Assembly (NCBI RefSeq): GCF_050003625.1 | Contig: NC_134400.1 | Coordinates: 64,772,011-64,836,010, forward strand | Source of the DNA: Haematobia irritans | Taxonomy: Eukaryota > Arthropoda > Insecta > Diptera > Muscidae | Length of the DNA stretch: 64,000 nucleotides | Direction: 5' to 3' | Shown here: positions 3,284 to 35,918 of the stretch, piece by piece | Layout of the letters: each line of letters starts with the position of its first letter | Numbering within the stretch: position 1 is the stretch's first letter | Notes under the pieces: model-generated | What the model saw: the letters and a program-made list of their open reading frames with translations, nothing else | Database searches by the model: none | Told to the model about the DNA's origin: nothing | Program-made: the position numbers and the translations under genes

Positions 3284-3355
3284 TGTACCAAGCGTATAAC
3301 ATGAAATGGATGAGATCACAATAAACTGTTACAACAACAACAACAAATAAGTTAA

Positions 3356-6433: not shown

Positions 6434-6436
6434 TTA

Positions 6437-13958: not shown

Positions 13959-14445
13959 ACCAAAGAAGGTAATTTGTTACAGTTTTATGAGTTTCGTAAA
14001 ATTTATTTTGCATATTTTTAGCACATTTTCAACAGTGGTGCTTGAAACAACTACCGAAAATGAGCCTCTCCAAAATACGCAGTCATCTTATTCATATGTA
14101 AGTTTTCGAAAAAAGCATGCTCTAGTCTATGTAATTTTTGATTCTATATATATTCTATTATATTTTAATACGATTTGTTATTTTAAGGATACATCGACAT
14201 CTACTTCAGCTTCATCTGCTAGAATGCAATATATGAAGGACATGACGGAAAATAGTTACCATATCAAAGAAAGCATGGATCGAATGGCGGGTTTAGCAGA
14301 ACATGAACAGAGTCCTCATGCACGCTTTCTACATCACATAGAATCGATAATGGATACATTTTCATCAAGGGAGCTGCTTATTTTTAAACGGCGTGTCAGT
14401 GATATAGCATATGATATGCAACAAGAACAACTAGAAAATAACTAG
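13959..14445 (+). CDS. Harbinger accessory protein with BESS-like tail, 3' exons only
   Basis: Three exon pieces: up to 13968 (then gtaattt), 14022-14097 and 14188-14445, with acceptors tttttag and ttttaag and consistent phases. The readable tail is acidic and polar, then HARFLHHIESIMDTFSSREL and FKRRVSDIAYDM, which fits a BESS-type motif: a short helical protein-interaction motif of MADF-BESS proteins. PIF/Harbinger elements usually encode a Myb/MADF-like DNA-binding partner convergent to the transposase, as here. The N-terminal exons are missing because the duplication breakpoint falls inside the gene. In the intact first copy they would lie outside the window. Confidence 0.6.
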
Positions 14446-14607
14446 ATAAAAAATTAAACTTTTTAACATCTTTTTTATTTTTTTATATTTTTTTCCACAC
14501 ACTTTATTGTTTTAACCACAACTAAACGTTGTAAGCAAATTATGTTCAATTCTACTTTGACTGAATTTTTTTCCAATTCGATATTAGCTTTTTTTTATTA
14601 TTCTAGT
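14446..14607. other. Harbinger 3' intergenic sequence left of BEL insertion
   Basis: AT-rich sequence after the accessory gene stop. It ends with ctagt (14603-14607), the left copy of the BEL target duplication. With the BEL element removed, the two convergent Harbinger genes are about 330 bp apart. Confidence 0.6.
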
Positions 14608-15133
14608 TGTCTAAATTGCATTTAGACAAATATACTTTTTTTTGTTGAAATATTAATAATGTTTAGAGAATTTAAATATTAACGTAATTTTATTAACTAT
14701 TGTGAATTTAATAGTAACGATAACGAATATGCTTGATTAATTTTTATACTTTATCGATATTAAAACCTGGAATTTTTCCAGCTACATTTGTATCTTTAGA
14801 AAGAAACAAATCTGAAATTGAAATGAAATATGAAATTATATAGTCACTTTGTGAAATAACCTCCAGCGGTGAGCATCAAATAAAATTAATTACTCTTCCC
14901 AAACCGAATTTTGACTGGTTTTATTTCTTGTATAATTTCCGCTTTATATATTTCCCCACATTGTACCATCATCATTCTCTTATGAGAAATTACATGCGGT
15001 ATTTGCAATAACAATTGTTGCTCCCCCTTTTTGGTTCGTCACCATCATTTGGACAACTACTCATATTTGGTCATCATTGGTCACCACATATTTCACTCGC
15101 CCTCGTCCAGAGTAAGGCCCCCCCTTTTCTACA
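14608..15133 (+). repeat. BEL/Pao 5' LTR
   Basis: 526 bp, TG...CA type, paired with 22363-22888 without any difference I can find. It contains short inverted phrases near its start (tctaaattgcatttaga). Transcription start and poly(A) signals cannot be assigned with certainty. Confidence 0.95.
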
Positions 15134-15150
15134 TGGTCCTTCGAAAAGAG
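15134..15150 (+). other. BEL/Pao primer-binding site, Tyr-tRNA type
   Basis: Directly after the LTR is tggtccttcga. This is complementary to the 3' end of an insect tyrosine tRNA, whose acceptor stem begins CCTTCGA (from memory of the tRNA sequence). The match runs 11 bases including the CCA complement and then stops. Confidence 0.55.
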
Positions 15151-16613
15151 AGCAGAACCAGCAATTGAAGATCATATTCACCACAGCTAAGAAATGAGGT
15201 AAATTATGGATTACATTCATTTGCATGATTAGTTCTTACTCGGAATCGGTGAGTGTATGACACATGATAGTCGGTTGGTATAGAATTAGAGTTAATGTGA
15301 CCTACAATAGCTCATAAAATTTGTAAGGAAAAAGGAAAAAAGAGAATTAAGTGTATTTAACCGGAAGGAAAGGTGGAAAATCAATTTTTTGGTGCTTAGA
15401 TGTGATAATGATCCAAATTTGGAGTATTGCTTAGCAAATTTCGCCAAGTTCAAAAATATATATTTCTATAACGTGAAGCGAGAATTTAATTTCTATGGCA
15501 TAAACCGTAAAATTTGCTCGTCCGTTTAACGAAGAATAATTAAAATCTTGTGAAACCCCCCTTTTCTAAATTCTAAATTTTATACGTGTATTTCAATATT
15601 CTTGGATTAGCCGCTTCGACAGAATCAAGTTTCAAGAAAATCACATCGATGTAAGTTCCAAGTTAACTCTTTTCCCTCATTTCAAATTTTATTATAAAAT
15701 ACCTATATATAACAAAGTAAAAATTTGGCATATATAACGGTTTAGTTTATTGCATAAGAAATATCTTAAAGGAGAAAACGAGAATTTTTACCAAACATAA
15801 CGGTTTAAACTCGAACATAATGATTTTAACTCGTTTTACTTTATTACTCGTTTGAAAGTTGTCAAGGGCATTAAATGTCACCCATATGCAATATTTTGAC
15901 ATTCTCTCATTCATCACCTACGAAACGCATTTTTCGAAAATGAGGGTAAAACATAATAACTAGAAGCATAAAGAAAGAGGACAGTAATGAAATGAGAAAC
16001 ATTGGTGCGGAAAAACACATCGAGTAAATTATCCATGATCTTCTTTACACTAATATTAGCAGTGGACAATGGCAGGGCGGTCATTTGAAATTATTGTCGT
16101 ATGATGGGAATTTAATTGGAATTAAATCATAATAGAATTGTTTATGATTATTACTATTGAAATCTTATGATTAATGCTATTGAAGTAATATGGTGTATCA
16201 CAATGACTACAAGTTTTAAAACTCTGTAGATTATTCTGAAAATTGTCAACCATTTGGAATTTATGCTAAATAAGTATTTTTTGTTTTTTGGATCTTCAAT
16301 TACAAAGTTTAACACTACGACCTTGGGGTCACTTGGAAATCTATGTCTATTTATTTTAATTTTGACCTTTGGCAAGAATAATTAGACGGAACCACTGGTT
16401 CAATACTGCTTATCGATCCTCTGGATTACGCATTTTCATTTTGGTAATTTCACATTATTGCACTTATGGTGCATTTGCTCATTGCAATCAAATTCAGCAA
16501 AATTCTCATAGATATCATTCACCGCACAAAACTCAATAATTTCCATAAGTCTCCATAATCTCATTATTTTTGTAATAATTCTTGAATTTCGTGGTGTGAA
16601 TTTCATATTGAGA
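15151..16613 (+). other. BEL/Pao 5' leader
   Basis: About 1.46 kb of noncoding, AT-rich leader between the primer site and gag, with many stops in all frames. It should hold the packaging signal. I see no clear structure. Confidence 0.6.
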
Positions 16614-18824
16614 ATGGGCCAGGAATCCACTGCTACAGGTAGCAATTCATCAAGTGGGACACGAAGCTCTTCACAAATTGAAAGCAAGTTTTTTTTCGAG
16701 TGCGATCATATTCGTATGTTCTGCACCAATCTTCAACGACATGACATTGTCGATCATACTGATTCCCTGCTCGAGGTAAAACTCGAGGATTTGGATAATC
16801 GGTGGAATAGGCTTCAAGGTGCTTTTGAGGAGTTAATGATAGTGTCGGAGACGGATGGATGTGTCGAAGTCGTGACAAAAGCCCAATCAGACTACACTTC
16901 GTCCTCTGAGGCATACTATTCCGCACGGGCGTCAATTATGGACATTTTGCGACTGACACAGGCCTCACATCACCCAAATGTTACATTAAGGAGAAGCAGG
17001 CCCACGACTGGTTCTCTCGACTCAAGATTCCTCTCACATCCCGTGAACGATGGTGTGGATAATTGTATCAAAGTCCCACCATGCGATACTGAGATTTTCA
17101 AAGGGGGATACGAGGAATGGCCGTCTTTCCGTGACATGTTCACGGCGGTCTATGTGAATCACCCACGTCTCACCCAGGCTCAGAAATTGTACCACCTCCG
17201 AAATAAAACTAGGGGTAGTGCAGGGGCAATTGTGAAAAGATATGCCTTGTGTGACGACAATTTTGATCTGGCGTGGAAGGCATTAAGGGACAGGTTCGAG
17301 AACAGGCGCGTGTTGGTAGATAATCAGTTGAAGATTTTATTTAATATCCCTTCTGCTAATGTCGAGACGAGTGAATCTATTCAAAAGGTTCAATCCACAG
17401 TAAGGGACTGTCTTGCTACGTTAAAGGCTTTGAGTGTTAATACCGAGGGGTGGGACCCAATCCTGATTTATTTGATTTCTACCAAGCTTCCGGAGGAGAC
17501 TCTTTCTCAATGGGAGCAATCCTTGAAATCACATCGGGAGTTGCCGATGTGGGATCAAATGGATTCCTTTCTAGTAGACCGGTTCGAGGTTGTAGAAAGG
17601 ATACGAAATATACGAGATACGAAGGAAAGGTACGGTTTTCCCTCTGGACAGAATTCCAAGGTTCAGACGTACTATTCACAGGAAAACCTTTCAATAGAGT
17701 GCAGACTGTGTTCTTCTAATCACTGCATAAGGACATGTCAGGCATTTCGGAGACTAACGGTGCCTGAGCGCATAAAGTTTGTTTTAGACAACGACTATTG
17801 CAATAACTGTTTATCTTCGAACCATACACGATCTGAGTGCAAGAGCAAGAGTACTTGTCTAACGTGCCGTAAAAAACATCATACCCTACTCCATCTTCAA
17901 CAGAAACCGTTGGCCAGGAAGTATCAGGGTAACTTTAAGGCACAATCTCCAGCGGAGGCCGTAGTATCCCCACATGAGGAAAACTCAAATTCTGTAGAGC
18001 AAGTATGCTCAAATCAACCCTCTACTTCAGGCGGGAATACAAATATTCAGGTTCAGGCTAATTTTTCTACTGGCAGTGAAGAGATTCTCCTTAGAACGGC
18101 TCTAGTTCAGATAGAACACGAAGGAAATTTCTTCACCATTAGAGCTTTGATAGACCCTGGTTCTCAGAGAACTTTCCTCTCTGAAAAGGTTAGATCCCGC
18201 CTTCGCATCCCGTATCAAAGATCGAATTACGAAATTGTAGGCATTGGTGAACAAACGCAGTCAGCTACAAAACAATGCCAACTTAAATTGTTCTCCAGTA
18301 AATACAATATAAGCTGTGATATAATGGCTATTATTTTGCCTAAACTCACGAGACGCATTCCTGCCGTTTCGTTTGAGATACCAAGTCCAAACAATCTCCA
18401 GGATCTCGATCTGGCAGACCCTAAATTTAACAAATCTTCTCAAATCGATATAATCTTGGGTAATGACTCGGAAAGATTTATCAATATTGACGGCATTCGG
18501 AAAAATGTATGTGGAGAGTCATCCGCATACAACACAATCTTTGGATGGGTATTGAGTGGTCCAATGACCACTCAAGTTCATTCGTTTTCTACTTCAGTCA
18601 GAACATCGGAGGATTCCGTACTGGCAGACATATTGCGTAAATTTTGGGAGCTGGAGGAAATACCAAATAGTTCTCCATTATCCGATGAAGATCAATACTG
18701 TGAGAATTACTACAGATCTACAACTGTACGTCTGGATAATGGCCGCTATATGGTAAGACTCCCTTTCAAAGAAAAGTTTTCGGAGAAGAGAAGAACCCAC
18801 AATTTCACAAGAGGTGGTGGTTGA
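16614..18824 (+). pseudogene. BEL/Pao gag, protease and RT start (frame broken)
   Basis: The ATG at 16614 begins MGQESTATGS; the frame is open further upstream only to a GTG. The Gag core follows (GYEEWPSFRDMFTAVYVNHP, LYHLRNKTRG, LPEETLSQWEQ), then two zinc-knuckle units near 17700-17890 (CRLCSSNHCIRTC; YCNNCLSSNHTRSEC with CLTCRKKHHTLLH). The BEL-type protease has its active-site phrase LIDPGSQRTFL near 18150. The RT fingers begin at VRLDNGRYMVRLPF. Right after this, the normal stretch before YLPHHAVV is missing and the frame is lost. Gag and protease could still be made. Confidence 0.9.
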
Positions 18825-21800
18825 CGGGAAGTATCGCTCATTTTATCTTCCTCACCATGCCGTAGTTAGACCCGAGCATAAAACAACCAAAGTAAGGATT
18901 GTATTTAATGCTTCCAGAAAAAGTAAGTCTGGCGTTTCTCTCAATGACATGCTCTGTACTGGTCCCACTTTACAGCGGGAACTCATTTCAACGATCCTCA
19001 ACTGGAGGAAATATAAATTTGTCTTCGGGGGTGATATTCAGAAAATGTACCGACAGATTATGGTACACCCTGAAGACAGACCCTACCAAAGGATTTTGTT
19101 TAGGCAAAACGGTTCGATAAATGATTTTCAACTAAAGACAGTTACTTTCGGCATAAATTGCGCCCCTTTTTTAGCCATACGCACACTAGTGCAACTAGCA
19201 TCAGATTCAGAAGTACAATACCCTAAGTCGGCTTCAATTTTGCGAAACGAAACATACGTGGACGACATTCTTTCGGGTGGTTACACAATAGATGGCACTC
19301 GAGAAGCCCAGAGCCAACTCATTTCGTGTTTACAATCTGCTGGATTTATATTAAGGAAAATTACGGCTAATGATCCCCAGCTGCTAACCCATCTTCCATC
19401 TGAATATTTGTATGATTCAGATTTTCTCAAGTTCAGCGAAACAAGCACTACGAAAACTTTAGGCATTAAATGGAATGCCATCTCAGATACGTTTTCCTAT
19501 GCATTTTCCTTTGAAATTTCACCATCGAAGGTGACCAAACGTTCAATTCTCTCTGCTGTGGCTCAACTTTTCGACCCAGCTGGGTGGATTACTCCGGTCA
19601 TAATACAGGCAAAGATTTTAATGCAACAGTTATGGTTGGAAGGTTTGCAATGGGACGAGGAAGTAGGTTCGGATACTTTGGAGAAGTGGAACTCCATTAT
19701 TGCTCACCTTCCACTAATAGAAGACATCTCAATACCGCGTTGGATACAATACATGCCGTCTGATACTATACAGATACATGGATTCTCCGACTCCTCGAAA
19801 CTGGCTTATTGTGCATGTGTGTATATAAGATGCCAAACATCAGAATATGTTGTGCTATCGAATTTATTAGTGGCGAAAAGTAAAGTGGCACCTATAAAAC
19901 CGGTTAGTTTGCCGCGTTTGGAATTGAATGGCGCCGTTTTATTAGCGAAACTCGTACGTTATGTTATCTCTTCTCTTAGTATTCCACACAAAGATATAAT
20001 ACTCTGGACGGACTCATCAATAGTGTTAGGTTGGTTATCAAAACCACCGTGGACATGGGAGACATACATAGCGAACCGTACTGCAATGATCCACGACCTT
20101 CTTCCAAACTTCACATGGCGACATATAGCCACTCATGACAACCCCGCCGACCTTGGTACACGTGGGTGTAGACCACAAGATTTGAAAAATAGTCAACTGT
20201 GGTGGCATGGTCCATCCTGGCTTACTAATCCCATATCATCTTGGCCCAAAAAAAATCCATTGGAAACTCCTGTATTGGGCAAGAGGGTACAATCTTTGCA
20301 CACACTTTCTCCCGACCCCGATATTTTGGAAAGATTCTCATCTTTTAACAGGGCCCTTCGGGTCCTTTCATATGTTTTCCGTTTTTTACATAATTCCCAC
20401 AAGAATTTTCAATCTCCCGTTAAAAGTAAATCACTTAATTTATCTCAAGCGGAGGTGAACTTTGTCAAAATCCGTCTCATAGCACTTTCGCAAGAAAGGC
20501 ATTACAAAGATGAAATTAAGCTAATTAGAAAAAACCAGCCTATCCCTAACAAGAGCAGCCTATGTCCACTAAATCCTTTTATGGACTCAAACGGTATATT
20601 AAGAGTAAATGGGCGTTTGGCAAACTCTTTTCTGCCCTATCGAGAAAGATATCCTATAATTTTGCCCGGAAATTCATTATATTCTCATTTATATCTCTCC
20701 GAATTACATAAATTTCTGGGACACGGTGAAATAAGTATCATGACTAGAATGGTTCAAACGGAATACCACATTTCCCGGTTGAAATCTCGAATCAAGAATG
20801 TAATTTTTAAGTGCAAAATATGTACCATACACAAGCATAAGGCAAGTTTCCAAATTATGGCTCCCCTGCCTCCCGAAAGATGCGCTATCACACCCCCATT
20901 TCATGTCACTGGCATTGATTTCGCGGGTCCCTTTGAGATAAAGAGCTCATTTTTACGAAAGGCACCAACACTGAAAGCCTACGTTTGCGTATTTGTATGC
21001 TTTTCGACAAAAGCAACCCATCTCGAATTATGTTCTGACTTATCATCTGCCGCGTTTGAGGCTGCATTTGCCCGATTTGTTGGGAGGCGGGGCCTCCCCC
21101 ATAAAGTCATGTCGGATAATGGGCGAAATTTTCTGGGTACAAGCAGAACATTATCTAGAGAATTTGCACGATTTCATAAGTGTATATCAAATGATATTTC
21201 ACAAAAATATGTGTCTCATGGCTTTGAATGGTGTTTTATACCTCCTCACGCCCCACACATGGGCGGTCTGTGGGAAGCTGCAGTAAAAAGCTTCAAATTT
21301 CATTTTAGACGAATCGCAGGCGCCCATAAGTTTACATTTGAACAAATGGCAACTTTACTTGCTCGTATTGAAGGCTTATTAAACTCTCGGCCTATCTCTG
21401 CATTGTCGGAAGATCCCTCTGACATTAACGCGTTGACACCTGGCCATTTCTTGAAAGGAGCTCCATTAGTATCTCTCCCTGAGCCTATTTCCCAAAATTT
21501 ATCACTCATTAACAGATGGGAGAAACTCAAGGCTATGCATCACCAGTTCTCTTTGCGATGGAAGGAAGATTATCTAAAATCTCTCCAAAAAAGATACAAG
21601 TGGAAAACTACCACACCCAACATAAAAAATGATGATCTGGTCGTAGTCATGGATGATTTGTTGCCCCCGAACGAGTGGCGTCTAGGCAGAGTACAAAAAA
21701 CATTCATGGGTTCTGATAACAACGTAAGAGTGGCAGAAATTCGGCTTTCGACGGGAACGATAACTCGTCCCATAGTTAAGTTGTGTGTATTACCCTACCA

Positions 21801-21828
21801 TAACGATGGTAGTACTAACCACCTTTAA
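18814..21828 (+). CDS. BEL/Pao RT, RNase H and integrase
   Basis: A long open frame of about 1000 codons, entered through the frame break rather than by a genuine start. RT: YLPHHAVV, VRIVFNAS, DIQKMYRQI and YVDDILSGG (catalytic pair) near 19255-19280. RNase H: DSSKLAYCACV and LWTDSSIVLGWL. Integrase: zinc-binding HKFLGHGE...CKICTIHKH near 20705-20845, then catalytic GIDFAGPF, MSDNGRNF and HMGGLWEAAVKSF near 20915, 21110 and 21260. It ends with a typical C-terminal domain (VVVMDDLLPPNEWRLGRV). All enzyme motifs are present, but the preceding deletion separates them from gag. Confidence 0.9.
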   Translation: MVVDGKYRSFYLPHHAVVRPEHKTTKVRIVFNASRKSKSGVSLNDMLCTGPTLQRELISTILNWRKYKFVFGGDIQKMYRQIMVHPEDRPYQRILFRQNGSINDFQLKTVTFGINCAPFLAIRTLVQLASDSEVQYPKSASILRNETYVDDILSGGYTIDGTREAQSQLISCLQSAGFILRKITANDPQLLTHLPSEYLYDSDFLKFSETSTTKTLGIKWNAISDTFSYAFSFEISPSKVTKRSILSAVAQLFDPAGWITPVIIQAKILMQQLWLEGLQWDEEVGSDTLEKWNSIIAHLPLIEDISIPRWIQYMPSDTIQIHGFSDSSKLAYCACVYIRCQTSEYVVLSNLLVAKSKVAPIKPVSLPRLELNGAVLLAKLVRYVISSLSIPHKDIILWTDSSIVLGWLSKPPWTWETYIANRTAMIHDLLPNFTWRHIATHDNPADLGTRGCRPQDLKNSQLWWHGPSWLTNPISSWPKKNPLETPVLGKRVQSLHTLSPDPDILERFSSFNRALRVLSYVFRFLHNSHKNFQSPVKSKSLNLSQAEVNFVKIRLIALSQERHYKDEIKLIRKNQPIPNKSSLCPLNPFMDSNGILRVNGRLANSFLPYRERYPIILPGNSLYSHLYLSELHKFLGHGEISIMTRMVQTEYHISRLKSRIKNVIFKCKICTIHKHKASFQIMAPLPPERCAITPPFHVTGIDFAGPFEIKSSFLRKAPTLKAYVCVFVCFSTKATHLELCSDLSSAAFEAAFARFVGRRGLPHKVMSDNGRNFLGTSRTLSREFARFHKCISNDISQKYVSHGFEWCFIPPHAPHMGGLWEAAVKSFKFHFRRIAGAHKFTFEQMATLLARIEGLLNSRPISALSEDPSDINALTPGHFLKGAPLVSLPEPISQNLSLINRWEKLKAMHHQFSLRWKEDYLKSLQKRYKWKTTTPNIKNDDLVVVMDDLLPPNEWRLGRVQKTFMGSDNNVRVAEIRLSTGTITRPIVKLCVLPYHNDGSTNHL

Positions 21829-21898
21829 TCGTTTATGTTACAAGAAAATACAACCAACAAAGTTTCACTAGTTAAAAATCAAACACTCCACTAAAATT

Positions 21899-22369
21899 TT
21901 GATAATATTTACTACTTGCAGTGCTTCCAATCGAAATAGGAGAAATTCTAATATATACAAATGCAAAATTTGCCAGAGATATCACTCAATTCGATTTTGT
22001 AACCAGTTTCTACGGATGTCTATCCAAGAAAGGGAAAGGGTCGTAGAAAGACATCGCTATTGCAGAAATTGTCTTGCAAGAAGCCATAGCTCAACGGAGT
22101 GTACATCAACAACGACATGTATGAAATGCAAAAGATTTCATCATACACTCCTACATCCACAACATCCGAGAGTTCAGCCACCCCTAAGTGCTAGAATTCG
22201 ACGAAATAAGAAGACGAATGACAACCGGCAACGAAATAAGCCAAGGAAATCTAGCGAGTCGATTGTTCCAAATCAAAACATTCTTGCGGAGGCATTGCAT
22301 TCCATCGCTGCAGTCTTATGTGTTACGACCAAAAACATTGCACAAGTGCAAGGCCGGCGCCATGTCTAA
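21899..22369 (+). CDS. Extra zinc-knuckle frame between pol and 3' LTR
   Basis: A frame of up to 156 codons with CKICQRYHSIRFC and then YCRNCLARSHSSTEC followed by CMKCKRFHHTLLH. This is the same arrangement as the element's own Gag knuckles but with clearly different residues. A splice-acceptor-like ctacttgcag directly precedes it at 21912-21921. The stop codon falls inside the 3' LTR (GTC TAA). It is not env-like: no signal, furin site or membrane segment. It may be a captured Gag-derived gene of another BEL/Pao lineage, expressed from a spliced RNA, or a passenger fragment. Confidence 0.55.
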   Translation: MIIFTTCSASNRNRRNSNIYKCKICQRYHSIRFCNQFLRMSIQERERVVERHRYCRNCLARSHSSTECTSTTTCMKCKRFHHTLLHPQHPRVQPPLSARIRRNKKTNDNRQRNKPRKSSESIVPNQNILAEALHSIAAVLCVTTKNIAQVQGRRHV

Positions 22370-22888
22370 ATTGCATTTAGACAAATATACTTTTTTTTGT
22401 TGAAATATTAATAATGTTTAGAGAATTTAAATATTAACGTAATTTTATTAACTATTGTGAATTTAATAGTAACGATAACGAATATGCTTGATTAATTTTT
22501 ATACTTTATCGATATTAAAACCTGGAATTTTTCCAGCTACATTTGTATCTTTAGAAAGAAACAAATCTGAAATTGAAATGAAATATGAAATTATATAGTC
22601 ACTTTGTGAAATAACCTCCAGCGGTGAGCATCAAATAAAATTAATTACTCTTCCCAAACCGAATTTTGACTGGTTTTATTTCTTGTATAATTTCCGCTTT
22701 ATATATTTCCCCACATTGTACCATCATCATTCTCTTATGAGAAATTACATGCGGTATTTGCAATAACAATTGTTGCTCCCCCTTTTTGGTTCGTCACCAT
22801 CATTTGGACAACTACTCATATTTGGTCATCATTGGTCACCACATATTTCACTCGCCCTCGTCCAGAGTAAGGCCCCCCCTTTTCTACA
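22363..22888 (+). repeat. BEL/Pao 3' LTR
   Basis: 526 bp, apparently identical to the 5' LTR. The bases just upstream (caaggccggcgcca) do not form a clear polypurine tract, which is unusual for a recently inserted element. Confidence 0.95.
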
Positions 22889-23062
22889 CTAGTAGTTTCC
22901 TTTTTATATATAATATATATTTCAAATAAGACTGAAAGCAGTAGAATTGTTTTTTATTTAACATTTTATTTTATTTTTTTATTTTATTTATAAGTTAAAA
23001 ATGTTGTTAGTAATTACTTATAATATATAAATAAAAAACGTTTGTTAAAAAATATTATTTTA

Positions 23063-26000
23063 TCATTCCAAAAATGCTTTTTTCCTTTGCCATGGTACGG
23101 ATCCCTCTTGAGAGTTTACAAATTCCATTATTCTTTCTCTCACAGCAGATCCACTCCCATCAACTCTTCCCCGGGAAGCTGGCAATATGTCAGAAAAGAA
23201 TAGGGAATCTCTACTAATAAGATTTCTGAAATTCCCATTTATTACTTGTCCTCTTCTGTTTTTCCTATCGGCTAAATTAGTTGGGCAATATTTATCTCTT
23301 CTGGTTCTCAACAAGAAATTATGAAGGTAAGCACAAGTTTTAATTATAGACTTTGCTCTGTCCGGACCACACGACATTGTTTTAGAAAGACAGTAGCTTT
23401 TAGAGCACATTATTCCAAAAGCATTTTCAATGCATCGTTTAGCTCTGCTAAGTCTATAATTAAAAATTCGTTTATTTTCGTCCAAAGCGTTGTTTTTACT
23501 TGGCTTATATGGCTTCATTATTCGTTGTTGAAGGGGAAACGCATCGTCAGCAACGAAAGTATAAGGAGTACTGTTTTCTTCGTGTACGGGGAAATTCAAT
23601 CGATTCTCCATTATAGCTTTGTCAAGTGCACATTTTGAAAAAATATTTGCATCTCCTTCCGATCCATATGCTCCAACGTCGAAATATACAAAACGGTAAT
23701 CTCCATCTGACACTGCAAGAAGCACTATGCTGAAGAATCCCTGAAATGTAAAAATGTATGTTAAAAATATTCACATATATAAGCTTGTAGAGAAATACCT
23801 TGTAATTATAAAACATGCTTCCCGATTTTTTCGGACATTTTATGGAAATATGCTTGCCGTCGATTGCACCAACGCAATTTGGAAAATTCCACTTTATAAA
23901 CGTATCGGCATTTCGTTGTATGTTAAAATTCGTCATTGGTGGAATTTCGTCGATCAAGACTTCACATATTGCACTGCACACTTCATCTACAATCTTACCA
24001 AAGTGCTGCTTACTAATCCGATATGCCGACGCAATATGCCTTTGCAAAATTCCACATGCAAAATATCTACAAAATGCAAAAAATCAATAAATAATTCACA
24101 ATGACCAAATTATGTAAATACGTACGAAGTTAAAAGTGAACCCTCCATGATAGAAAAGTTATCCCAGAAACATTTTGCCAAACTATAATACATTACAAAT
24201 ACAATTAAGTTAATAGATTTTCTCCAACTAAATATTTCAAAACTGTTAGAATGTCTTTATAGTCTCCATGCGTTTGCTACCAAAATTGTTTGAATACAGA
24301 AAACAGTCCCAGCAGTTACCAAAAGTAATATAATTCATCATTAAAACCAGCGTATGAATCACCCTGTAGTAATTAAAGCACGGCAAATAACGAATGGAGT
24401 GGAACTTTTGTACGCTGTGGTGGTATAATGACAAGAAATATTATATTTTTGTTTATACCGTGTCGTCAATTTCTGGCTCCAGTCAAAATATCTTCATAAG
24501 AAGACAAAATCAACCACCGATTCTCTATTCAACCGTCGAACGGAACGGACGTGTTTTTCAATAGCGGATAAACTCATCGTAATAGGTACCTACTAAGAAT
24601 TTCAAGTGTGGTGGGATATTAAGCCACCATGCAGCGAAATTCCAAGTCATCCACTGGGTTGCTAACTTCAGGGCCCAGTGGACGGGTATCGACTGGAGTT
24701 ATAAATCTGGGCAATGACCAAGAGTTAGGCCCAATTAGTCGACCTGTAGACGGGTCGACAGGTGGCGACACCATGACAAGTCGAACTTTTTCTAAGGTAA
24801 CGACATCAAAAGGAGGTAATCCCTCACGAAAGAGATTCAAGGAACGCAGAAATGCTTTGTTTATCCTAACGAAGTTAGGATCAGTCGACCCAAGCACAAA
24901 GCGATTTCTTAAAATGGGCTCAAGGAATTCTTGAGACTGGAAAAAGGGAACGATCGCCGGATGAGCTGCCATCCTCCAAAAGGGATCAAAGATCGTTTGC
25001 CTCAGTTGCTAAAGACAGCCTTGTGATGGCTATCATTAATAAAGGAGCATTGGACGGTATGGTTCCAAAGCAAAAATGGGGGGAAATTGAGAATGCTCTG
25101 TCTGTCGTCTACTCACAGGTGCTGGGAAAGTTTCCCGGCCCAGATCCTCGACACCAAGAGGCTGGTTGGTATCAAGGACGATTTAAGCTAGTCGCATTTG
25201 AGGACCAGAGGTCTATAGAATGTTTTAAAGCTGCTCTGATACTAATTTGTGAAGTTTGGGAAGGAGCTGCTCTAGAGTTAGTCGAGAAGAAAGACACCGG
25301 CTAGACCTAGAGCACATGCGTGGATACCTGCAAACCCTTCTGACCCTGAATCTATTTTAAATAGACTGAAACGATGCAATCCACATCTTCCAACAGCTGA
25401 TTGGAAGGTTGGCCGTTTGGATGAAGTGGATGGACCAAGACGGCATGCAGTGGTTATATTGAACACTCTATCTAGCATCTAGCAAAGTCTCAGGGCCGTG
25501 TATGCTATGGCTTTCATTATATACAAATGAAGGTATATAAAAACGATCAGCTAAAGGATTCGGAAATCGACAAGCCTCTGTCTGAATCAGAAATAAGCGG
25601 ATCCTCTTGCGAAGTCGAGGGAGATACCAAAGTTGAAGACATGGATAGACACCGTATGCGAGAGGAGGTTTCTATTGCCTCAGAACTCACCAAAGTTGAA
25701 CCTATGGTTATTGCGAGAGTCACCGAGATCTCTGAAGAGAACATTCTTGATGACTCGATTGAAGCGGCTGTGTGACGGTTGTTGAAAATCTCGATGGTCC
25801 TACGGATCCTCCAGATAAATCTTCATCATTGTAAGGCTGCATGTGCTGCCTTAAAAGTTCTCCTGATGAAAGGGGCCATAGATATAGTTCTTATTCAAGA
25901 ACCATATGTTTATAGAACCAAAATATGTGAATTAAGTACTCCGGGGTTCAAACTATTGCAGTATACTGGTAATGATGTAATTCGAGCCTGCATAATTGCT

Positions 26001-29000
26001 AAAAACGAGCTTAACTTGTTTCTGCTTCCTTCAATGTGCAATGCAGACACTGTCGTTGCCAATTTAGAAATAGCCAAATGCAAATTTTGGGTATCTTCGG
26101 TCTATATGGGACATGACAGGGAGATGCCTCCATGTGCCGTTAAGACCTTAGTTGAGGAGTCACTGAAAACAAAGACGAAACTCATTATGGGATGCGATGC
26201 GAATGCACATCATAGTATATGGGGAAGTAGTGATACTAATGCAAGGGGAGAGTCGCTAATAGAGTTTATTTTGCGTACTAATCTGGTAGTTTGCAACAAG
26301 GGAGATGCCCCAACCTTTGTCACTAAAACCAGGCAAGAGGTTTTGGCCATCACCTTGGCCTCGCAAGAACTGAATGAAATGATATCTGAGTGGCAGGTTT
26401 TAAGTGAACACAGCTTCTCAGATCATCGCTACATCAGTTTCAAATTTGATGTTCATATCACCAAGACCATATTTCCGTCAAATGTTAGGAAAGCTGACTG
26501 GAATAGGTATAGGGAATCGTTCAATATGATAACAAGGCAAAGTCCACCAGAGCCCCTGAGGACTGGGACGCTTACAAGAAGTATCTGAGTGGATACAAAC
26601 GAGAACTGAGAAAGGCTCAGCATAACCCTTGGAATGATTACTGCAGCAGTATTGAGAATACGTCCGAGGCTTCCAGACTACGGAAGGTTCTAGCATCCAC
26701 CAACTCCGCTCCAGGTTTCATTAAAACATCGGAGGGCAATTGGACAACGTCCAGCGAGGAGACGCTGGAGGCACTATTGGACACACATTTTCCTGGAAAT
26801 CAGACGGTTGAACCATGTACTGGCGGTGCCACAGTTGCTCAGCGGTCGTTTCCTGTCGAGGAAATTGTATCGGAAACTAGAATAAGATGGGCGCTAAATA
26901 GCTTTGGACCATTCAAATCCCCCGGACCTGATGGAATTACTCCGGCGGAGTTACAAGCTGTAACTGACAAAATTATCCCCTGGTTGTCGGTGATATATAA
27001 AGGATGTATCAACTTATCATATATCCCAGGAAAGTGGAGGGAAACAAAAGTCGTTTTCATACCTAAAGCGGGAAAAGCCTCTCACTCGAGGGCGAAGGAT
27101 TTCCGACCAATCAGCTTATCCTCATTCCTACTTAAGACTCTGGAGAGGATGATAGATATTTATCTTGGAACTAGCATCGATTCAAGTTTGTTCTCGAAAC
27201 GACAGCATGCATACTCGAAGGGCAGGTCTTCTGAGCTCACTATCTGTCAAAGAATACACAATCGTGGCGTTTCTAGACATCGAAGAGGCGTTCAATAATG
27301 TCCATCCGAGCTCGATATTAAATGGACTGACAACTCTGAATGTTGATCCATGTATACTTAGGCTGTTAGACGAACTGCTAATGAAGAGACGTATTTCAGC
27401 CACACTAGGACAAGCAAACATACAAAGGTATGTGAACAGAGGCACTCCCCAAGGAGGAGTTCTATCACCTCTTCTTTGGAATGTTGCTATAAATAGCCTT
27501 CTGGTTACTCTAGAAAAAGAAAGGATAAAAGTGGTGGCATACGCAGATGATGTGGCTCTGGCAGTCAGGGGAAAATTCCCATCCACAATCAGAGATATTA
27601 TTCAGAGAGCCCTCCGGATAACTGAGAAATGGGCGAAAGACAATGGTCTTGGGGTAAATCCTGCAAAGACGGAATTAGTCATGTACTGCAAAGATCGCAA
27701 AACTCCCACGGTTAGGCCTATTTCCTTAGGGGGTATTGAAATTCCCTTTGGTGATTGTGCAAAATACCTTGGCGTTATTTTGGACAGGAAGCTGAACTTT
27801 AAGCTTAATATTGAAGAAAGGGCGAGAAAGGCAACTGTAGCTTTGTACTCGTGCAAAAAGGCAATAGGAAAAAAGTGGGGACTAAAACCAAAAATTGTGC
27901 ATTGGCTATACACGACAGTGGTTAGACCTATAATGCTATATGGTGTTGTAGTCTGGTGGCCTGCACTTCAGAAACCGACTTGTTTAGATAAAGTTCAGCG
28001 TATGGCGTGTTTGTGTATTTCAGGCGCATTCAGCAAGACAGGAACAAATTCCCTTAATGTCATGCTGCATCTATTGCCTTTAGACATTTTGGCCAAACAG
28101 TCAGCTGCAACAACGGCTGTGCGGTTGCGCGAACTATCGCTGTGGTCGGAAAAAGGTTACGGTCACAGTTCTGTCCTCAAAATAATGCCAGATGTGCCTA
28201 ACGTAGTGGATTACACTTTTCGACAAAAAGTTTGAGACTCTAATCCCCAACAGTGAGGCGTGGTGCACACAGACCCCGGGGAATAAAGAATATATAGATT
28301 TCTACACTGATGGCTCCAAATTGGATGGACAAGTGGGTTTCGGAGTATATTCTAATGATCTGGAACTTTGAATAGCGAAAAGATTACCTAATCACTGTAG
28401 TGTTTTTCAGGCTGAAATATTAGCAATAAGAGAGGTGGCGAATTGGCTGAGAAGTAATGTTCCAAAAAATGTGGGCATTAATATATACTCAGACAGTCAA
28501 CCTGCAATAAAATCCTTGGACTCTGTGTTCCTCAACTCGAAAACGGCCATCGATTGCCGCAAATCTCTCAATGAGATGGCTGAGCAGTACAATATTCACC
28601 TAATATGGGTGCATGGCCATAGGAACATACCGGGGAACTGCGAAGCGGATGAGTTGGCAAGGCTAGGGACTACCTTACATATTCCAGCGGAACTAGAATT
28701 TGTTGGTATGCCCCTAGCTACCTTCAAGCTCATGCTGCGTGAGAAGGCTGTTATGATGGCAAATGTTCGATGGGAGAATTGCAAGGGTTGTAACGACACC
28801 AAGCAAATATGGCCCCATTTCAACTTAAACCGCACACTAGATATGCTAATGTTCTCGAGACGTCAGATATCACTCCTGATATCTTCTATAACGGGTCGCT
28901 GCCTGATAGGAGATTTTGCAAAAACTATTGGCGCGAAGTATAATGACTATTGTATGAGCTGTCATGATTTTTTGCGGAGATGGAGCAAATGCAAGGACCT

Positions 29001-32000
29001 TCATCGACAGATCATTGACAGAATGCCACCTTTATCTACCTTATTTTGGTAAATTTTATTGTTTTTGTTAATTATCACTAGAGTGATTTAGAAAATATGC
29101 TACATGCTGTTGGCGAAATTTTTTGGAAAATCATCCTGGTGCTGGATACACAAGGAGTATAATTTTTGTATCGTAAAATGTGTGAAATGTGGTTGAATTC
29201 GGTTAAAATGTAGATATAGCTGCCATTTATATCTTCCGCGCAATTAAGACTAATATGACAACAGAGGCAAATGTTAACTCCGATATACTTCTACACCCAA
29301 AAAAAGTGAACCCACCGTTGAATAAAATGTAGACTTATTTGAGAAAATGTTTTCTAATTGCAACATGTTACAAATAAGTTAAGTCAATCCCACGGCGTCG
29401 GGTTCTACGCACCGGATTGACCCGATGGATACCAGCCATCGGCCAGCGGCTGCCACCTCAGTGTACGTGTTGTCTCGTCCGTTTTTTCGTGTTGGAGAAG
29501 GTGCATCCCGGGGAGCCTTCTCCGCCTGCTTTTGGTCCGAGCCGGGATAGAGGAAAACCCCGGACCATGGTACTGTGCCGTCTGCCGAAATCGAATTCAC
29601 CATCGGTTTCGGTGAGGTGTAACCGGTGCATGGAATGGGTGCACTTCCGGAACTGCTCCGGCCTAACATCGCTGCGGGAGTATAGTCAAACTAACTTCGT
29701 GGCAGGATGCTGTGCCAATGACAGCAGCAGTGGGTCATCTGATTATGTGACCCCACCGACTTCTCCCGCACAACAATATTCTCCGCCGCAGCATCTTACA
29801 CCGAATATTGTTGTACCAGTTCCGGAGAGTGCATCATTTTTGCAATTTAATTGCAACGGGCTCCGTGGTAAGATTAGTGAGATCGTAGACTTTATGAATC
29901 GGAAAAGGATAAGGGTCGCGGCGATCCAGGAAACAAGGCTGAATCCCACCTGCAGCCTACGACATTGTGATGGGTACAATGTCCTACGGAAGGATCGCAC
30001 AAGAAATAGAGGTGGTGGCCTGGCTTTCATATTACACCGTTCCGTGCAGTATAGACCTATCACGCTTGTGCTAGACACTAATGACCCGTACATGGAATGT
30101 ATGGGGGTAGCAGTTAAGTGTGGGGCTGCCGAAATAGAGCTGTACAATGTGTACATACCGCCGGTTGGTAGCTGTGCTCCAGGTTATAGCCCAAACATTG
30201 AGTGGTTGTTGAGCGGGCATAACCGATTGGTTCTAGGAGATTTTAATGCCCACCATGAACTTTGGCATTCTCTCCTGGGTAATGACCAGAGGGGCATAGC
30301 TTTGGCAGAGCAGATAGACGACTCCACATTTTGCCCACGAGAATTATGGGTGACTGCAGCAGTTCGCCAGATTTATCGTTAGCATCGCCTGGTCTGATAA
30401 ATGACGTCTCCTGGCAACCCGTCATTTCATTGGGTTCGGACCACCTCCCCATAATTCTCACCATCAACCGACCCTCCGATTTCATAACGTCTGAACGCCG
30501 GACGTTTATTAATCAAAAGAAAGCCAACTGGGAAGGCTTCAGAGAATACACCGATCGCCGCTTCAGTGAGCTCCCGCCCCCTTACATGTTCATGTTGCCC
30601 AGAGGGAGTTCCGGGACATCACCAACGCAGCAGCCGCTCGCTTCATACCCGCTGGTCGAATTGCCCAAGTGAGGCCCAACTTCCCAGCCGAAGCGGCGGG
30701 ACTCGCAGACGAGCGTGATGAACGTCGTCGTGCTAACCCTGCTGATCCTAGAATCAGAGAACTAAATCTAGAGATTAGTAAGATAATCGACGAGCACAAG
30801 CGGAACACTTGGTTAGAGCACCTGAAGCAATGTAACTTAGGAACAGGAACTGGTAAATTGTGGTCAACAGTTAGAGCCCTCTCGAACCCCTCCACAAGGG
30901 ATGATGGGATTTCAGTCACATTTGGCGACGTGACTGTGACTGATCCGAAGAGGTGCGCCAAATACTTCAACCGACAGTTTGTCGAGCATCCCGAGAGTGA
31001 TAGAGCGAAAAGGAGAGCCACCCGTCGTGTACGTGGTCTCCGAGCCGATGACACACCACAATTTACTGCAGCCGAAGTTACCAATGTCATCAACAGCGCG
31101 AAACCATCTAAGGCGCTGGGCCCTGACGGAGTTTCAATGCTAATGCTGAAGCATCTGGGAATACTGGGAGTTGAGTACCTGACCAGACTCCTCAATTTGT
31201 CTTTGGAATCACACATTATACCCGATGTCTGGAAAATGGGAAGGGTGATTCCACTACTGAAACCGGGCAAAGATTCGAGCAAAGGTGAATCGTACAGACC
31301 GATATCCCTTCTTTCGCCAGTAGCCAAGACACTTGAGGCATTACTCCTCCCCAGCCTTGTGGAGAATTTTCCTGCTGCCCACCATCAACATGGATTCCGT
31401 AAGGTACATAGTACGACAACAGCCTTACATGCCATTTCGACACATATTAATAAGGGACTTAATCAGCCCAGGCCGTGTCATAGGACGGTCCTCGTGGCGC
31501 TTGACCTATCGAAAGCATTCGATACGGTCAACCATGCCACATTATTTGAGGACATCGAGAATACGTCCCTACCGACAGGAGCGAAGCGTTGGGTGCTGAA
31601 TTATATGTGTGGACGCCAGTCGTACGTGGAATTCAGGGACAGAAAGTCAAGACCGCGTAGAGTTAAACAGGGAGTTCCCCAAGGTGGGGTGATATCTCCG
31701 GCATTGTTTAACCTCTACATGTCCTCGATTCCACCCCCTCCTGACGGCGTCGAGATTGTATCATATGCGGATGATTGTACAATCTTGGCATCTGGGCCCA
31801 ATGTTGATGACATTTGCGATCGGTTGAACGTCTACATAGCTAATCTTACCAGTTATTTCACTGCGAGAAACTTGAGGATATCCCCCACCAAATCCTCAGC
31901 CACACTTTTTACTACATGGACGGCAGAAGTGCGCAGGCAGTTGAATATCAGAGTCGATGGAGTAATAAATCCGACCACAAATTACCCCAAGATTCTTGGG

Positions 32001-35000
32001 GTCACATTCGACGGCCTTTTTAGGTCATCTGCCCATGGTAGAAACAAGGTCCTTGCCGGCAGTACTTGGGGTGCGGACAAAGAAACCTTGCTAACTACTT
32101 ATAAGGCAATTGGCCGGTCAGTGGTAAACTATGCAGCGCCAGTGTGGACACCGCAGGCCAGTGATACGCAGTGGAATAACATACAAACCTGCCAGAACGC
32201 TGCTCTTAGAACTGCGACTGGGTGTCTCCGCAGCACACCCCTGGATCACCTATATGTGGAGACAAAGATCATCCCTGTGCGAAGACACAACTACATGTTG
32301 TCAAAGCAGTATCTCCTGGGTTGTTATCGCAGTAATCATCCAAACCACCATCTTATGGATACACAACCACCACCCAGGAACGTAAGGGTTGATATACATA
32401 ATCTAGAGCGCGAGATCCAGCGCTATAAAAGAGAGCCTCTAGATCAAGCAGCGTACCAGGCAGGTTTGAACAGGATTCATGAGGATACTGTAGCTGAAGC
32501 GTTGAGAAGCTACAAGGTTAATCCTCCCTCCCACGGCAGACTAGGGTAGTTTTGGCCCAATTAAGATCAGGCAAGTGCAGCCGCCTCAATTCCTACTTAT
32601 CGGTGATTGATAGCAGCGTAGCTGACGATTGTCCAATTTGCAACCAAGGGCCACATGACACGCGTCATCTTTTCTCTTGCCCAGCCAAACCAACCCGACT
32701 TACCACCGGATCACTCTTGACACACCCCACCTTAGTCGCAGAGTTCCTTGATCTGCCAACAAGCTGATGTACCAAGCGTATAACATGAAATGGATGAGAT
32801 CACAATAAACTGTTACAACAACAACAAATAAGTTAATACTTTTTGTCAAATTGAAGAAAATTTATTAAAAATAAAAAATTATTTCTAATAAATTTTTGTT
32901 CAAGAAAATTTCATATGTTGAAAGAAAAAACTGGATTTAAAAATGTTAAAATGTCCTTAGCGCTGTACGAAGTTCATGACAGGTAAAATTTTTGTAAAAT
33001 TTACTCATTTGAGAGACTATGAACTCAATTTAAGCAAACTTCTGCCATTGTAGGAAGTTATGAACCAATTTTTTAGTAAAATTATAGTGCACAAGTTTAC
33101 TAAAAAAATTGTATACAACTTTTTTTCTTATTTTTAGTTCACGCCATTACGTTTTTACTATGGTGAGATATCAATTTACTATTGTGAAAAACAATTGCTA
33201 ATTTTGATTATTCTTTAACAAATAAAAACTACTTTTTGTTCGTTTTGATATCATCAAAACATGCACAGCATAGTGATTTCGTAAATGTCAAGTATTTTTT
33301 TCTCATCTTTACCATTGAACAAAAAATTCAAACCAAACAAAATTCTGAATATGATGATATCGTAAAATATATTTAAGAAATAAAAAACAATAAATATCTT
33401 GTTCTTAATATTTTTGTGGTTTTTATAGTTTTTATTCTGATTGTTGTAGTATATAATTTATTAGATCCCCTATCATTGAAATAAATTGGCCTGCACTTAT
33501 TGATAAGACAGCAGTTCACAACTACTTGTGGTATCGCAATGGACTGAATGGCAAAGTGGGCCTGGAGTAACAGGCTACCACTATAACCTAATCTAAACCA
33601 ACGCTGGAATAGTGCTACCGTACATTGTAAGTCTAATGGAAGAATTCGGAAAATGAAGAATAATATACTTACTCCAATGTAACAGCTAGGTTTTCTTTTG
33701 GGGTTATGCCATCAATCGGAAGAGTCTTTTTCTTATGTTTTAAACGTCCATGAACCATTCCAAAGAGGCAAAAAAAAGTTTCAACATCCATATGGAAATT
33801 CTCCTTGAATTTATCTTCACACCGAACAAGGTCTTCAAACTAGTGCGGAAAGTCAATATATATAAGTATATATTCAAATTCGCTCTGTGTACTGAGAATG
33901 AATTGAAATGATAATAAAGGGATTTCCAATTGGCAAAATCAAAACAATCATTTTTTCTCATGTCATATTAATAAAAATTTTGCCAGTTTTCCTGTATCGA
34001 CAATTACTTCAATAGTGTTGAAGGACTAAAAAAGTTTTTGCTGAACTGTTAAAATCTTTTTAACAGAAAAAATATGTTGAAGTGTACCCAAACTAATATT
34101 CTTAACTATTTTAAATAAAAAGTCAGGAAAATATTTTTTCCGCCGCGTTGATTTATAATAGTGATGAATGACTACATATATACTTACACAAGTCGCAAAA
34201 CGTCCTTTGTGATTTCTTTCAGCTAGATACGAATTCGTGGGATTGCGTACAATAGTGCATTGCTCAAAATCAACTGCCATCATAAGAAATTGGTGGGCGG
34301 CCATACAAACAGATGCAACTAATTTTTGGGGAATTCTTCTTTTGTAATTACAAAATGGTCGTTTCCAATTATATAGTGGCAAGTTTATGTTCCCAAAAGA
34401 CCCTACTCGTGCAATGTTAGCTGCAACTGAATTTCCTTCACCAATGCTTTCCATGTCAAACTTATCTACATGGTTTTGGAAATCGGCTTCCTAAAACAGC
34501 AAATATATGCTAAAAATGGGGACGGGACAATAACAAAGACAAATAACATACCATAGGAATTTGTGTTATTTCATCAATTTGAAATTGTAGTGAATAATCA
34601 CCGTAACTCTCGTCTATTTCAGAAGAGTTAACTATAGAAGTTTTTAAGGGATCTGTATCTCTAACTGAGGCTTCAAAAGTCTAAAATAACAATAATTGGT
34701 ATAAAATATTTATTGAGAATAAGAGACATTCTCATACATTTGAGAGCAATGTATGTTCTTGTCCGTTATGCCACAATGAAGGCGGCAAGTTCATTTGGTC
34801 CATTTCAAAATTTTCATTCATTATTTCTATTTCCAAAGAACAAAGTGTAGGCTCTGAATCTTCCAAATATTCTTCCACATATTCAGTGCTTTTGTCGTTT
34901 TTCTAAAATGGCAATGATTAGGAACTATGAGATGCTACTAGTTCGATATACATTTTACCATCAAATCCGATTCAGATTGAATATATTTAGACGGCTTTTT

Positions 35001-35473
35001 AGCTGTAATTGGCCAGTTGCTATCAAGGTCATGGATGCTCACATCTAAACTATATAACTGATCTTCGGGAAAAATTTTATACCAGGTATGCCTTAAAGCA
35101 TACATCGATTCCCTCGTTTTTTCATCAACCTGTAATAATTATTATTACTCACGTTTTTATATACTGCATAGTAAATGCTTACATTCAAAAAAACTCCACA
35201 AAATATGTCAACAATCCTCGTGCTGAACAATTGTGCATATGTACGACTTAGATCATTTTTCGTTATTGAGTCTAATACGTAAAGCATCGACAAGCTCAAG
35301 CCCGGATTAATTGTTTTTAAAAAATTTTCAAAATCTCGCATAATTTCTTTAGCATATTTCACATATTTTAATGCTACCATTGTTATATGGCTAATTATGT
35401 ATTTATTATTGTGTGTTAGTTTTAGCAAACTAGATGTAAAATCGCTCGAAACTTGTTTTTCGTTTTGCTCCAT
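23063..35473 (-). CDS. CID-PIF/Harbinger transposase, all eight exons, second copy
   Basis: Exons: 35183-35473, 34959-35129, 34738-34902, 34552-34680, 34188-34490, 33673-33839, 23799-24066, 23063-23740; all introns GT-AG. Exon 6 ends in TTGGA (phase 2) and exon 7 begins ATATTTTGC, joining as L-E-Y-F-A, the usual Harbinger sequence there. About 723 codons. Residues 1-154: Pcf11-like CID with DSITKN at about 68-73. Residues 155-252: acidic linker. Residues 253-410: Harbinger N-terminal region. Then the DDE nuclease: GAIDGKH (D about 478), FDVGAYG (D about 519), CIENAFGIM (E about 603). No stop or frameshift seen. It catalyses element excision and insertion in the nucleus; the CID is normally a phospho-CTD reader. 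Intron 6 is 9.6 kb through nested LINEs. Confidence 0.75.
24181..24545. other. Harbinger intron 6, segment left of LOA-B' insertion
   Basis: AT-rich intron sequence between exon 7 and the nested LINE. No coding potential matching Harbinger is seen. A short minus-strand frame ending ...DNFSIMEGSLLTS before gtacgt (24123-24180) looks exon-like but has no place in the transposase. Confidence 0.5.
24629..25778 (+). pseudogene. LOA-B' ORF1 (gag-like)
   Basis: The pieces are a basic N-terminal region (GPSGRVSTGVINLGNDQEL..., 24629-24934), MAIINKGALDGMVPKQ and RHQEAGWYQGRFKLVAFEDQ with VWEGAALELVEKKD (25023-25304), RLDEVDGPRRHAVVILNTL in a shifted frame near 25410-25475, and KNDQLKDSEIDKPLSESE to EENILDDSIE (25527-25775). 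It would be the RNA-binding ORF1 protein. Frame changes near 24930, 25300 and 25490 break it. Confidence 0.75.
25791..29052 (+). pseudogene. LOA-B' ORF2: endonuclease, RT and RNase H
   Basis: Endonuclease: LQINLHHCKAA, IQEPYV, MGCDANAHHSIWGSSDTN, SEHSFSDHRY. At about 26530 roughly 210 bp are missing compared with LOA-B (6960-7170). RT: SPGPDGITPAEL, DFRPISLSSFLLKTLE, a frameshift near 27230, then FLDIEEAFNNVHP, GTPQGGVLSPLLWN and YADDVALAV. RNase H: YIDFYTDGSKLDG, a TGA stop at 28369-28371, IYSDSQPAIKSL and WVHGHRNIPGNCEADELAR. Catalytic residues of all three enzymes are visible, but the deletion, frameshift and stop make it inactive. Confidence 0.85.
29081..29369. other. Harbinger intron sequence between the two LINEs
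   Basis: AT-rich and noncoding. It contains ctacacccaaaaaaagtg (29291-29308), which resembles the ctacaccctcaaaaaaa end of TE-X and may be a small fragment of that family. Nothing else is recognised. Confidence 0.4.
29417..30672 (+). pseudogene. LINE-A PHD-like finger and endonuclease, second copy
   Basis: Same domain order as the first copy: PHD-like half finger (CNRCMEWVHFRNC), FNCNGL, IQETRL, GDFNAHHELWH. A 19-bp deletion at about 30334 removes part of the endonuclease and shifts the frame, so the end (SSPDLSLAS, SLGSDHLPI) is read in a second frame at 30331-30672. The finger-splitting and endonuclease-RT frameshifts of the first copy are also present. Confidence 0.85.
30669..32549 (+). 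pseudogene. LINE-A reverse transcriptase, second copy
   Basis: All RT blocks seen in the first copy are kept (VALDLSKAFDTVNH, GVPQGGVISPALF, SYADDCTIL). A 9-bp in-frame deletion removes three residues near 32052, and a 42-bp deletion shortens the C-terminus near 32526. The apparent GTG start is an artefact of the upstream frameshift. Confidence 0.88.
32534..32767 (+). pseudogene. LINE-A C-terminal zinc motif, second copy
   Basis: The same CPICNQGPHDTRHLFSC motif as in the first copy, again out of frame with the RT. A single change near the end (TGSL for TRSL) distinguishes it. Confidence 0.8.
32837..33672. other. Transposase intron 6, right segment, second copy
   Basis: AT-rich and noncoding, matching 3356-4191 with few differences. 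It contains the SINE-like remnant at 33487-33603 and the intron 6 donor gtaagt at its right end. Confidence 0.6.
33487..33603 (-). mobile_element. SINE-like remnant, second copy
   Basis: Counterpart of 4006-4122, with one visible substitution (cacaac for caccac). The tRNA-like head is missing. Confidence 0.4.
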
Positions 35474-35915
35474 TATTAAAGATTTATTACGTTTTTAATT
35501 TTATTAATATTTTTGAATTCGTCTTCTTCGAGTTGTAAAAAGAACAACAAAATATTTAACACCAAAATATTTGACAGTTGCAAGTGATGACAATACTTAT
35601 TATATCAATAATTAGCGTTTTTTTCTTATGAAGAGAGTTAGCTACATTGGTTTAGAAATGAAGTGAAATAAATAAAAATGAAAACTTTTAGCCGCTAACG
35701 AACTTAATACCCACCTTTAATACCCACCTTAAATGCGAAATCTTTGTTTTGAGCATTTTAAAGCACATATTTATACAACCCTGGATTTAACGCACGAAAA
35801 AATAGGCAGGCATATTATTTCGCATAAATAATGTAACATCCCTGGATTTGTGATCCTATATACGGAGATAGATGAAGATATTCGTTTTTCACAGAAACGA
35901 ACTTAGTACTAAGCA
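35474..35915. promoter_or_regulatory. Harbinger 5' terminal region, second copy
   Basis: Counterpart of 5993-6433, with one extra T and a few substitutions. It contains the terminal palindrome at 35902-35913 and must include the transposase promoter if the gene is expressed. Confidence 0.35.
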
Positions 35916-35918
35916 TTA

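Follow-up and report, generated by a model that had tools for sequence, protein, structure and literature searches.

The window analysed here is a 64,000-nucleotide stretch of the 1.17-Gb assembly of the horn fly Haematobia irritans (C4:64772011-64836010, forward strand). On its minus strand lies an eight-exon gene that profile matches confirmed to join an RNA polymerase II (Pol II) C-terminal domain (CTD)-interacting domain (CID) to a PIF/Harbinger transposase, the D-D-E residues of which are intact. Exon 1 (35183..35473, 97 codons) holds the start codon and the first part of the CID, and exon 2 (34959..35129, 57 codons, phase 0 at both borders) the remainder, its borders being those of an exon of the host gene Pcf11. 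Exons 3 (34738..34902) and 4 (34552..34680) encode a linker for which disorder is predicted in a homologue located on C2. Exon 5 (34188..34490) contains the end of this linker and the N-terminus of the transposase, which continues in exon 6 (33673..33839), in exon 7 (23799..24066), where the first catalytic D is found in AIDGKH, and in exon 8 (23063..23740), where the second D (VADDAFPL), the E (CIENAFG) and the stop codon are found. All borders have a GT donor and an AG acceptor, exons 1 to 5 end in phase 0 and exon 6 in phase 2, and the join of exon 6 to exon 7 across a 9,606-bp intron reads LEYFA. The exons splice to a single frame of 723 codons, which confirms the eight exons, the GT-AG borders, the agreeing phases and the LEYFA join noted in an initial annotation.

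That annotation had also assigned a CID to the N-terminal exons and a Harbinger transposase with D, D and E motifs to the following ones, and Pfam recovered both domains. Residues 12-124 match the CID family (PF04818; E 1e-10, 42.3 bits for a cut-off of 23.9) and residues 477-639 match DDE_Tnp_4 (E 1.4e-25, above the cut-off). The catalytic residues D478, D563 and E603 (P0001 numbering) occupy nearly invariant columns in an alignment of 34 sequences. Furthermore, the NCBI model of the C2 copy in the same assembly, LOC142225916, also has 723 amino acids and is 98% identical to the window protein over 100% of it.

The gene is part of a mobile element. The lineage to which the window copy belongs (lineage A) forms a 5.8 kb unit in L042 (on C2) and L043 (on C5); the unit of L044 (on C1) is longer through an insertion. 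It is bounded by 17-bp terminal inverted repeats (TIRs), AGGTGGGTATTAAGTTC, the 3' TIR of L044 being shorter by 3 bp, and its start codon is located 243 bp inward of the 5' end. Related TIRs are present at the ends of two other lineages (B and C), and only a 5' TIR was found in a fourth one (D). The CID exons lie inside the TIRs in the seven elements having both ends, including copies on C1, C2, C4 and C5, where both parts occur within one TIR-bounded unit; the absence of the CID exons from other copies of the element had been named as grounds for refutation. Six of these seven elements have matching 3-bp flanks: TTA in four (L042, L043, L045 and a second, left copy in the window), TTT in L044 and TAT in L012; L012 and L045, like the seventh element, L013, are copies of lineages B and C. 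The immediate flanks of lineage-A copies differ from each other. Farther out, L042, L043 and L044 share a 0.4-kb repeat in their flanks, but its distance from the element varies and it may lie on either side. The C2 and C5 copies are 99.7% identical across 5.8 kb, and such near-identical dispersed copies imply recent movement. Lineage-A copies abut TIR-like ends of other elements at positions 2661 and 8490 of L042 and at 35717-35730 of the window; insertion of lineage A into TTA sites adjacent to TIRs is suggested.

Lineage A carries a second gene, downstream of the transposase gene and on the opposite strand, that encodes a MADF domain. This domain (PF10545) was detected in lineages A (E 2.5e-7), B (E 2.9e-10) and C (E 3.7e-10) in proteins whose exons were joined by eye, one small exon being apparently missing; no MADF gene was seen by eye in the lineage-D copy L014. 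Lineages A, B and C thus have the CID in addition to the MADF partner, and the hypothesis of a CID replacing this partner was rejected. Moreover, the exact 17-bp lineage-A TIR occurs 4072 times (2050 + 2022) in the genome, for 0 occurrences of the reversed control. Among 100 TIR places listed, 10 pairs of plus and minus repeats are 450 bp apart or less, as for short non-autonomous derivatives. These exact TIRs probably belong to a large family of miniature inverted-repeat transposable elements, and lineage A may drive these short derivatives that share its ends.

A search of the genome of H. irritans with the CID protein as query gave 24 matches. Twenty of them correspond to 10 CID-transposase loci and two to the host Pcf11; the last two are a locus that is apparently a processed pseudogene of Pcf11 (L049, C4:82.87M) and a decayed CID fragment (L048). 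Five of the 10 loci belong to lineage A (the two window copies on C4 and those on C2, C5 and C1), two to lineage B (C1:94.47M, which matches LOC142221434, and C2:93.87M), one to lineage C (C2:74.20M) and two to lineage D (C1:56.88M and C4:63.13M; at C4:63.13M the CID is broken and exon 8 contains a stop). Between lineages, identity reaches 42-58% for the CID and 64-74% for exon 8; the CID of lineage B scores 48.8 bits against the profile. Selection was assessed by the ratio of the proportions of nonsynonymous and synonymous differences (pN/pS) because synonymous divergence (dS) between lineages is mostly saturated. For the CID, this ratio is 0.34-0.53 in the six lineage pairs, with bootstrap upper bounds all at or below 0.69. 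The joined CID-transposase appears to be kept by selection. At the level of sequence, these comparisons show that the CID was captured, that the whole unit was mobilised and that four lineages have retained it, with a pN/pS far lower than 1.

The source of the CID was sought in the host genome. The locus L047 (C5:20.775M), which we take to be the host Pcf11 from known features of its sequence, has an exon that starts with VNEK, ends with FLKT and is followed by a coiled-coil region. As read from the splice consensus, both phase-0 borders of this exon are shared with exon 2 of the transposon gene, which has 57 codons in lineages A and D as in the host, and 55 and 53 codons in B and C, respectively, with the same phases. 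Hence, the CID was captured in the form of genomic exons that kept the position of their intron, which backs the earlier proposal that host exons of Pcf11 type were captured; the host intron located just before VPPEIKL is not found in the transposons. In local alignments, the transposon CIDs are 51-56% identical to Pcf11 versus 21-27% to SCAF, and the best PDB relative of the window CID is Pcf11 (4.4e-8). These data support an origin of the element's CID from the host Pcf11. A SCAF or RPRD origin was rejected since identity favours Pcf11 and since the genome search with the CID matched Pcf11 but no SCAF or RPRD locus at E <= 0.001.

Compared with the host, the KN pair of the CTD-binding groove is followed by one additional residue in each of the four lineages (KND instead of KNV), and this shared insertion points to one capture. 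In the tree of transposase exon 8, the degraded CID-less locus F comes next to the CID-bearing loci (87/90). L055 (C2:122.81M) has a normal transposase start, and within 7 kb no match to the CID reaches an E below 0.02. Since this locus is degraded, with neither TIRs nor MADF gene found there, it provides weak evidence on the polarity of the change; CID-less relatives of 398-420 amino acids in other flies suggest the same polarity. The truncated transposase copy L054 (C4:47.51M) groups with lineage C and is uninformative on the CID. The check for a CID covered L054 and L055, leaving aside C5:175.18M, three short partial matches (54-64% identity) and a group of about 40% identity.

Distribution was explored in about 5.8 billion annotated or predicted proteins, by searches that detect proteins sharing exact words with the query. 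Among the best 120 of 570 matches, only two CID-bearing transposases were found, both from H. irritans. When the query was restricted to residues 1-300 of the second fusion, the same species provided the only two proteins that passed out of 2049 candidates, which answers at the protein level the suggestion to look for the fusion in related flies. A query with the CID alone retrieved just itself among 154 candidates; this search missed the H. irritans paralogue and therefore has a short reach. No CID-transposase fusion was found described in the open-licence literature of PubMed Central (PMC), in line with the novelty first claimed, and the main text of the 2018 horn fly genome paper does not mention Harbinger.

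The N-terminal part is predicted to fold as a CID. For the C2 homologue, AlphaFold2 (34-row alignment, with the CID in two rows only) places eight helices in residues 2-132, with block values of the predicted local distance difference test (pLDDT) of 78-93 for residues 1-140. The linker (146-303) has a pLDDT near 33 and the transposase is mostly confident (mean pLDDT 76.2, predicted template-modelling score 0.60). The best Foldseek matches, out of three among 312 at E <= 0.001, are the Pcf11 CID-CTD structures 1sza/1sz9 (template-modelling score TMt 0.83-0.84, root-mean-square deviation 1.6-1.9, best E 1.8e-4). The structure prediction proposed as a check of the N-terminal part thus gave a Pcf11-like fold. 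Furthermore, the Tyr and the Asp of the CTD groove are present in lineages A, B, C and D and in the host, and the KN pair is kept in the four lineages. In published CID structures, this Tyr stacks on Tyr1 of the CTD, according to the relevant part of one study (PMC5382271). Rtt103 is described in part of another (PMC5452035) as contacting the phosphate through an arginine that, in an alignment examined by eye, the transposon CIDs seem to lack, like Pcf11.

The window copy itself has been damaged by later events. Comparison by blastn with L042, L043 and L044 and of the window with itself delimits the element at 13961..35716 on the minus strand. The interval 23063..35473 first noted therefore describes the gene but not the full extent of the element, whose 5' TIR (AGGTGGGTATTAAGTTC, minus strand) is located at 35700..35716 and whose 3' part extends down to 13961. 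The 5' end is complete and is followed outward by TTA (35717-35719), the word that is also duplicated at the target site of the left copy, which is complete. Intron 6 is about 1.25 kb long in the C2 copy; its length of 9.6 kb in the window is due to two non-LTR (long terminal repeat) retrotransposons, both on the plus strand (24522..33209, outer limits approximate; open reading frames 25776-29052 and 29378-32549), which match RVT_1, endonuclease and RNase H. In addition, an LTR retrotransposon interrupts the 3' part of the element (14608..22888). Its 526-bp LTRs (14608-15133 and 22363-22888) are identical and its insertion is therefore very recent. Beyond it, the element resumes at 14607-13961 with a remnant of the MADF partner gene, i.e. 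its last exon or exons (13961..14445, plus strand). This right copy of the window has intact coding exons, while its 3' TIR and MADF-domain exons are gone past 13961, at the edge of a duplicated segment.

The left copy has exons 1-6 at 4192..5992 (minus strand) and its 5' TIR at 6218-6234; exons 7-8, with a stop in exon 8, and the 3' TIR are found in L015, beyond the left edge of the window. Self comparison aligned positions 1-2999 and 3043-11775 with 29555-41244 (98.7% and 99.3% identity) and 11768-13958 with 45693-47885 (98.5%). The right copy of the duplicated neighbourhood covers about 13961-47885, later insertions included, and the left one begins left of the window. We infer that the two copies arose by a tandem duplication whose units meet near 13958/13961, an edge that cuts through the Harbinger element. 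The left copy thus belongs to a segmental duplication and does not represent a transposition of its own, and its use as an independent proof of mobility was rejected. Local repeat arrays were also observed at 41821-42158 and 43410-45289.

What may such a CID do for a transposon? It likely binds the phosphorylated CTD of Pol II. That it thereby tethers the transposase of this Harbinger element to transcribed chromatin has, in our view, slightly better than even chances, and tethering as the very reason for the retention of the CID falls a little short of even. Genomic exons of the Pcf11 CID were taken in upstream of the normal transposase start, with a disordered linker between, and under this scenario the N-terminus of the fused protein would grip the CTD phosphorylated on Ser2. 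Parts of two studies (PMC9179366, PMC9710019) describe that, in relatives, it is the partner protein that carries the Harbinger transposase to the nucleus and that it binds close to the ends. Here, the TIRs would be located and cut by the DDE domain together with its MADF partner; the catalytic residues and this partner speak for normal Harbinger chemistry. The CID would anchor the transposition complex at actively transcribed chromatin, probably toward the 3' ends of genes where Pcf11 acts, which would skew insertion and keep the transposase nuclear. More tentatively, the transposon might read the phosphorylation state of Pol II and ride it to transcribed, especially 3', chromatin, thereby amassing the large family of short insertions that have its 17-bp ends.

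Several observations weigh against this view of a functional, CTD-binding CID captured once by a mobile element. The flanks of the seventh two-ended element, L013, differ (TTA/TAA). Within lineage A, changes are too scarce for a test: only 2-3 nonsynonymous and 0 synonymous ones separate the CID of the window copy from those of L042-L044. Exon 8 has a pN/pS of 0.18-0.30 and constraint on the CID is therefore weaker. In the exon-8 tree, the CID-bearing loci come together at a weak fork only (80/81), with the truncated copy E, in which no CID was found, inside, and in a tree of the CID alone the four transposon CIDs are set apart from the host Pcf11 in just 16% of bootstrap trees. Protein searches found the fusion in one species only, H. 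irritans. Lastly, part of a study on Seb1 reports that CTD binding is unaffected when the conserved Asp is mutated (D67M; PMC5382271), so that conservation of this residue is weak evidence for CTD binding.

Other explanations were considered, chief among them effects on RNA 3' ends and nuclear import or retention. The CID could act on RNA ends, the fusion competing with the host Pcf11 on the CTD or altering termination or polyadenylation at its own transcripts or at insertion sites. The CID is nearer to Pcf11 than to SCAF or RPRD, and a yeast Pcf11 CID mutant without CTD binding terminates badly, as stated in part of one report (PMC4403260). However, the capture was limited to the CID exons, and the gene has none of the Pcf11 parts involved in recruiting cleavage factors. 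We consider this explanation unlikely. Alternatively, the CID could mainly help the transposase to enter the nucleus, to be retained there, to remain stable or to form multimers. This would fit with the need of Harbinger transposases for a partner to enter the nucleus, described in parts of PMC9710019 and PMC9179366, and a CTD-binding domain would keep the protein nuclear. Nevertheless, the MADF partner that ensures import in relatives is retained in A, B and C, and we regard such a role as quite improbable.

Slightly less probable still is that the CID exons are mere passengers, picked up without function as in exon-carrying elements. Exon capture without function is common in other transposon superfamilies, and the looser constraint on the CID than on the catalytic domain goes in this direction. 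However, upstream of the transposase part, four lineages whose CIDs share only 42-58% identity preserve an open frame with consensus splice sites, and the pN/pS of the CID is lower than 1; one D copy out of two is broken. The intervening linker is not visibly conserved by eye. That two adjacent genes were wrongly joined is very improbable, and this reading was rejected, as was chance: all phases agree, the order does not change in diverged lineages, a single pair of TIRs encloses both parts and the NCBI model has the same length. Least credible is a host-transposase fusion gene that was domesticated and then multiplied by segmental duplication, as the two window copies were. On C1, C2 and C5, the copies are bounded by TIRs and matching 3-bp flanks and their immediate surroundings differ, their outer-flank repeat varies in distance and side, and TIRs with matching flanks at several loci also contradict an immobile fusion that had lost its TIRs.

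Several known systems come close to this element, for which tethering to transcribed chromatin is the explanation that we prefer. Like the PIF/Harbinger elements described in parts of PMC9710019 and PMC9179366, it has a DDE_Tnp_4 transposase with D-D-E residues, TIRs, a 3-bp target duplication and a second gene encoding a MADF protein. Unlike them, it has an N-terminal CID of about 145 residues deriving from Pcf11, followed by a disordered linker. With the Pcf11 CID (PF04818; PDB 1sza, 2bf0), it shares the eight-helix fold, predicted here, the groove residues, the exon borders and the C-terminal WPI stretch. However, its CID and that of the host share 46-56% identity in the part compared, and the element's CID has one residue more after KN, lacks the downstream parts of Pcf11 and is fused to a transposase. 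Host-transposase fusion genes, in which a host domain and a transposase are joined, are known, and host proteins are known to derive from transposable elements. In the present case, the direction is reversed: a mobile element gained a host domain, stayed mobile and kept this domain through several lineages. If the CID does bind the Pol II tail, this would be a natural DNA transposon tied to transcription and a direct test case of whether a CTD-binding domain suffices to steer integration. The integrases of retroelements such as Ty1 and Ty3 are tethered to the Pol III machinery, as presented in parts of PMC5911963 and PMC8632968, and the proposed logic would be similar, the transcription machinery guiding the choice of targets; the likeness is only hypothetical, and the horn fly element differs from them in being a DNA transposon that would use the CTD of Pol II by means of a captured domain.

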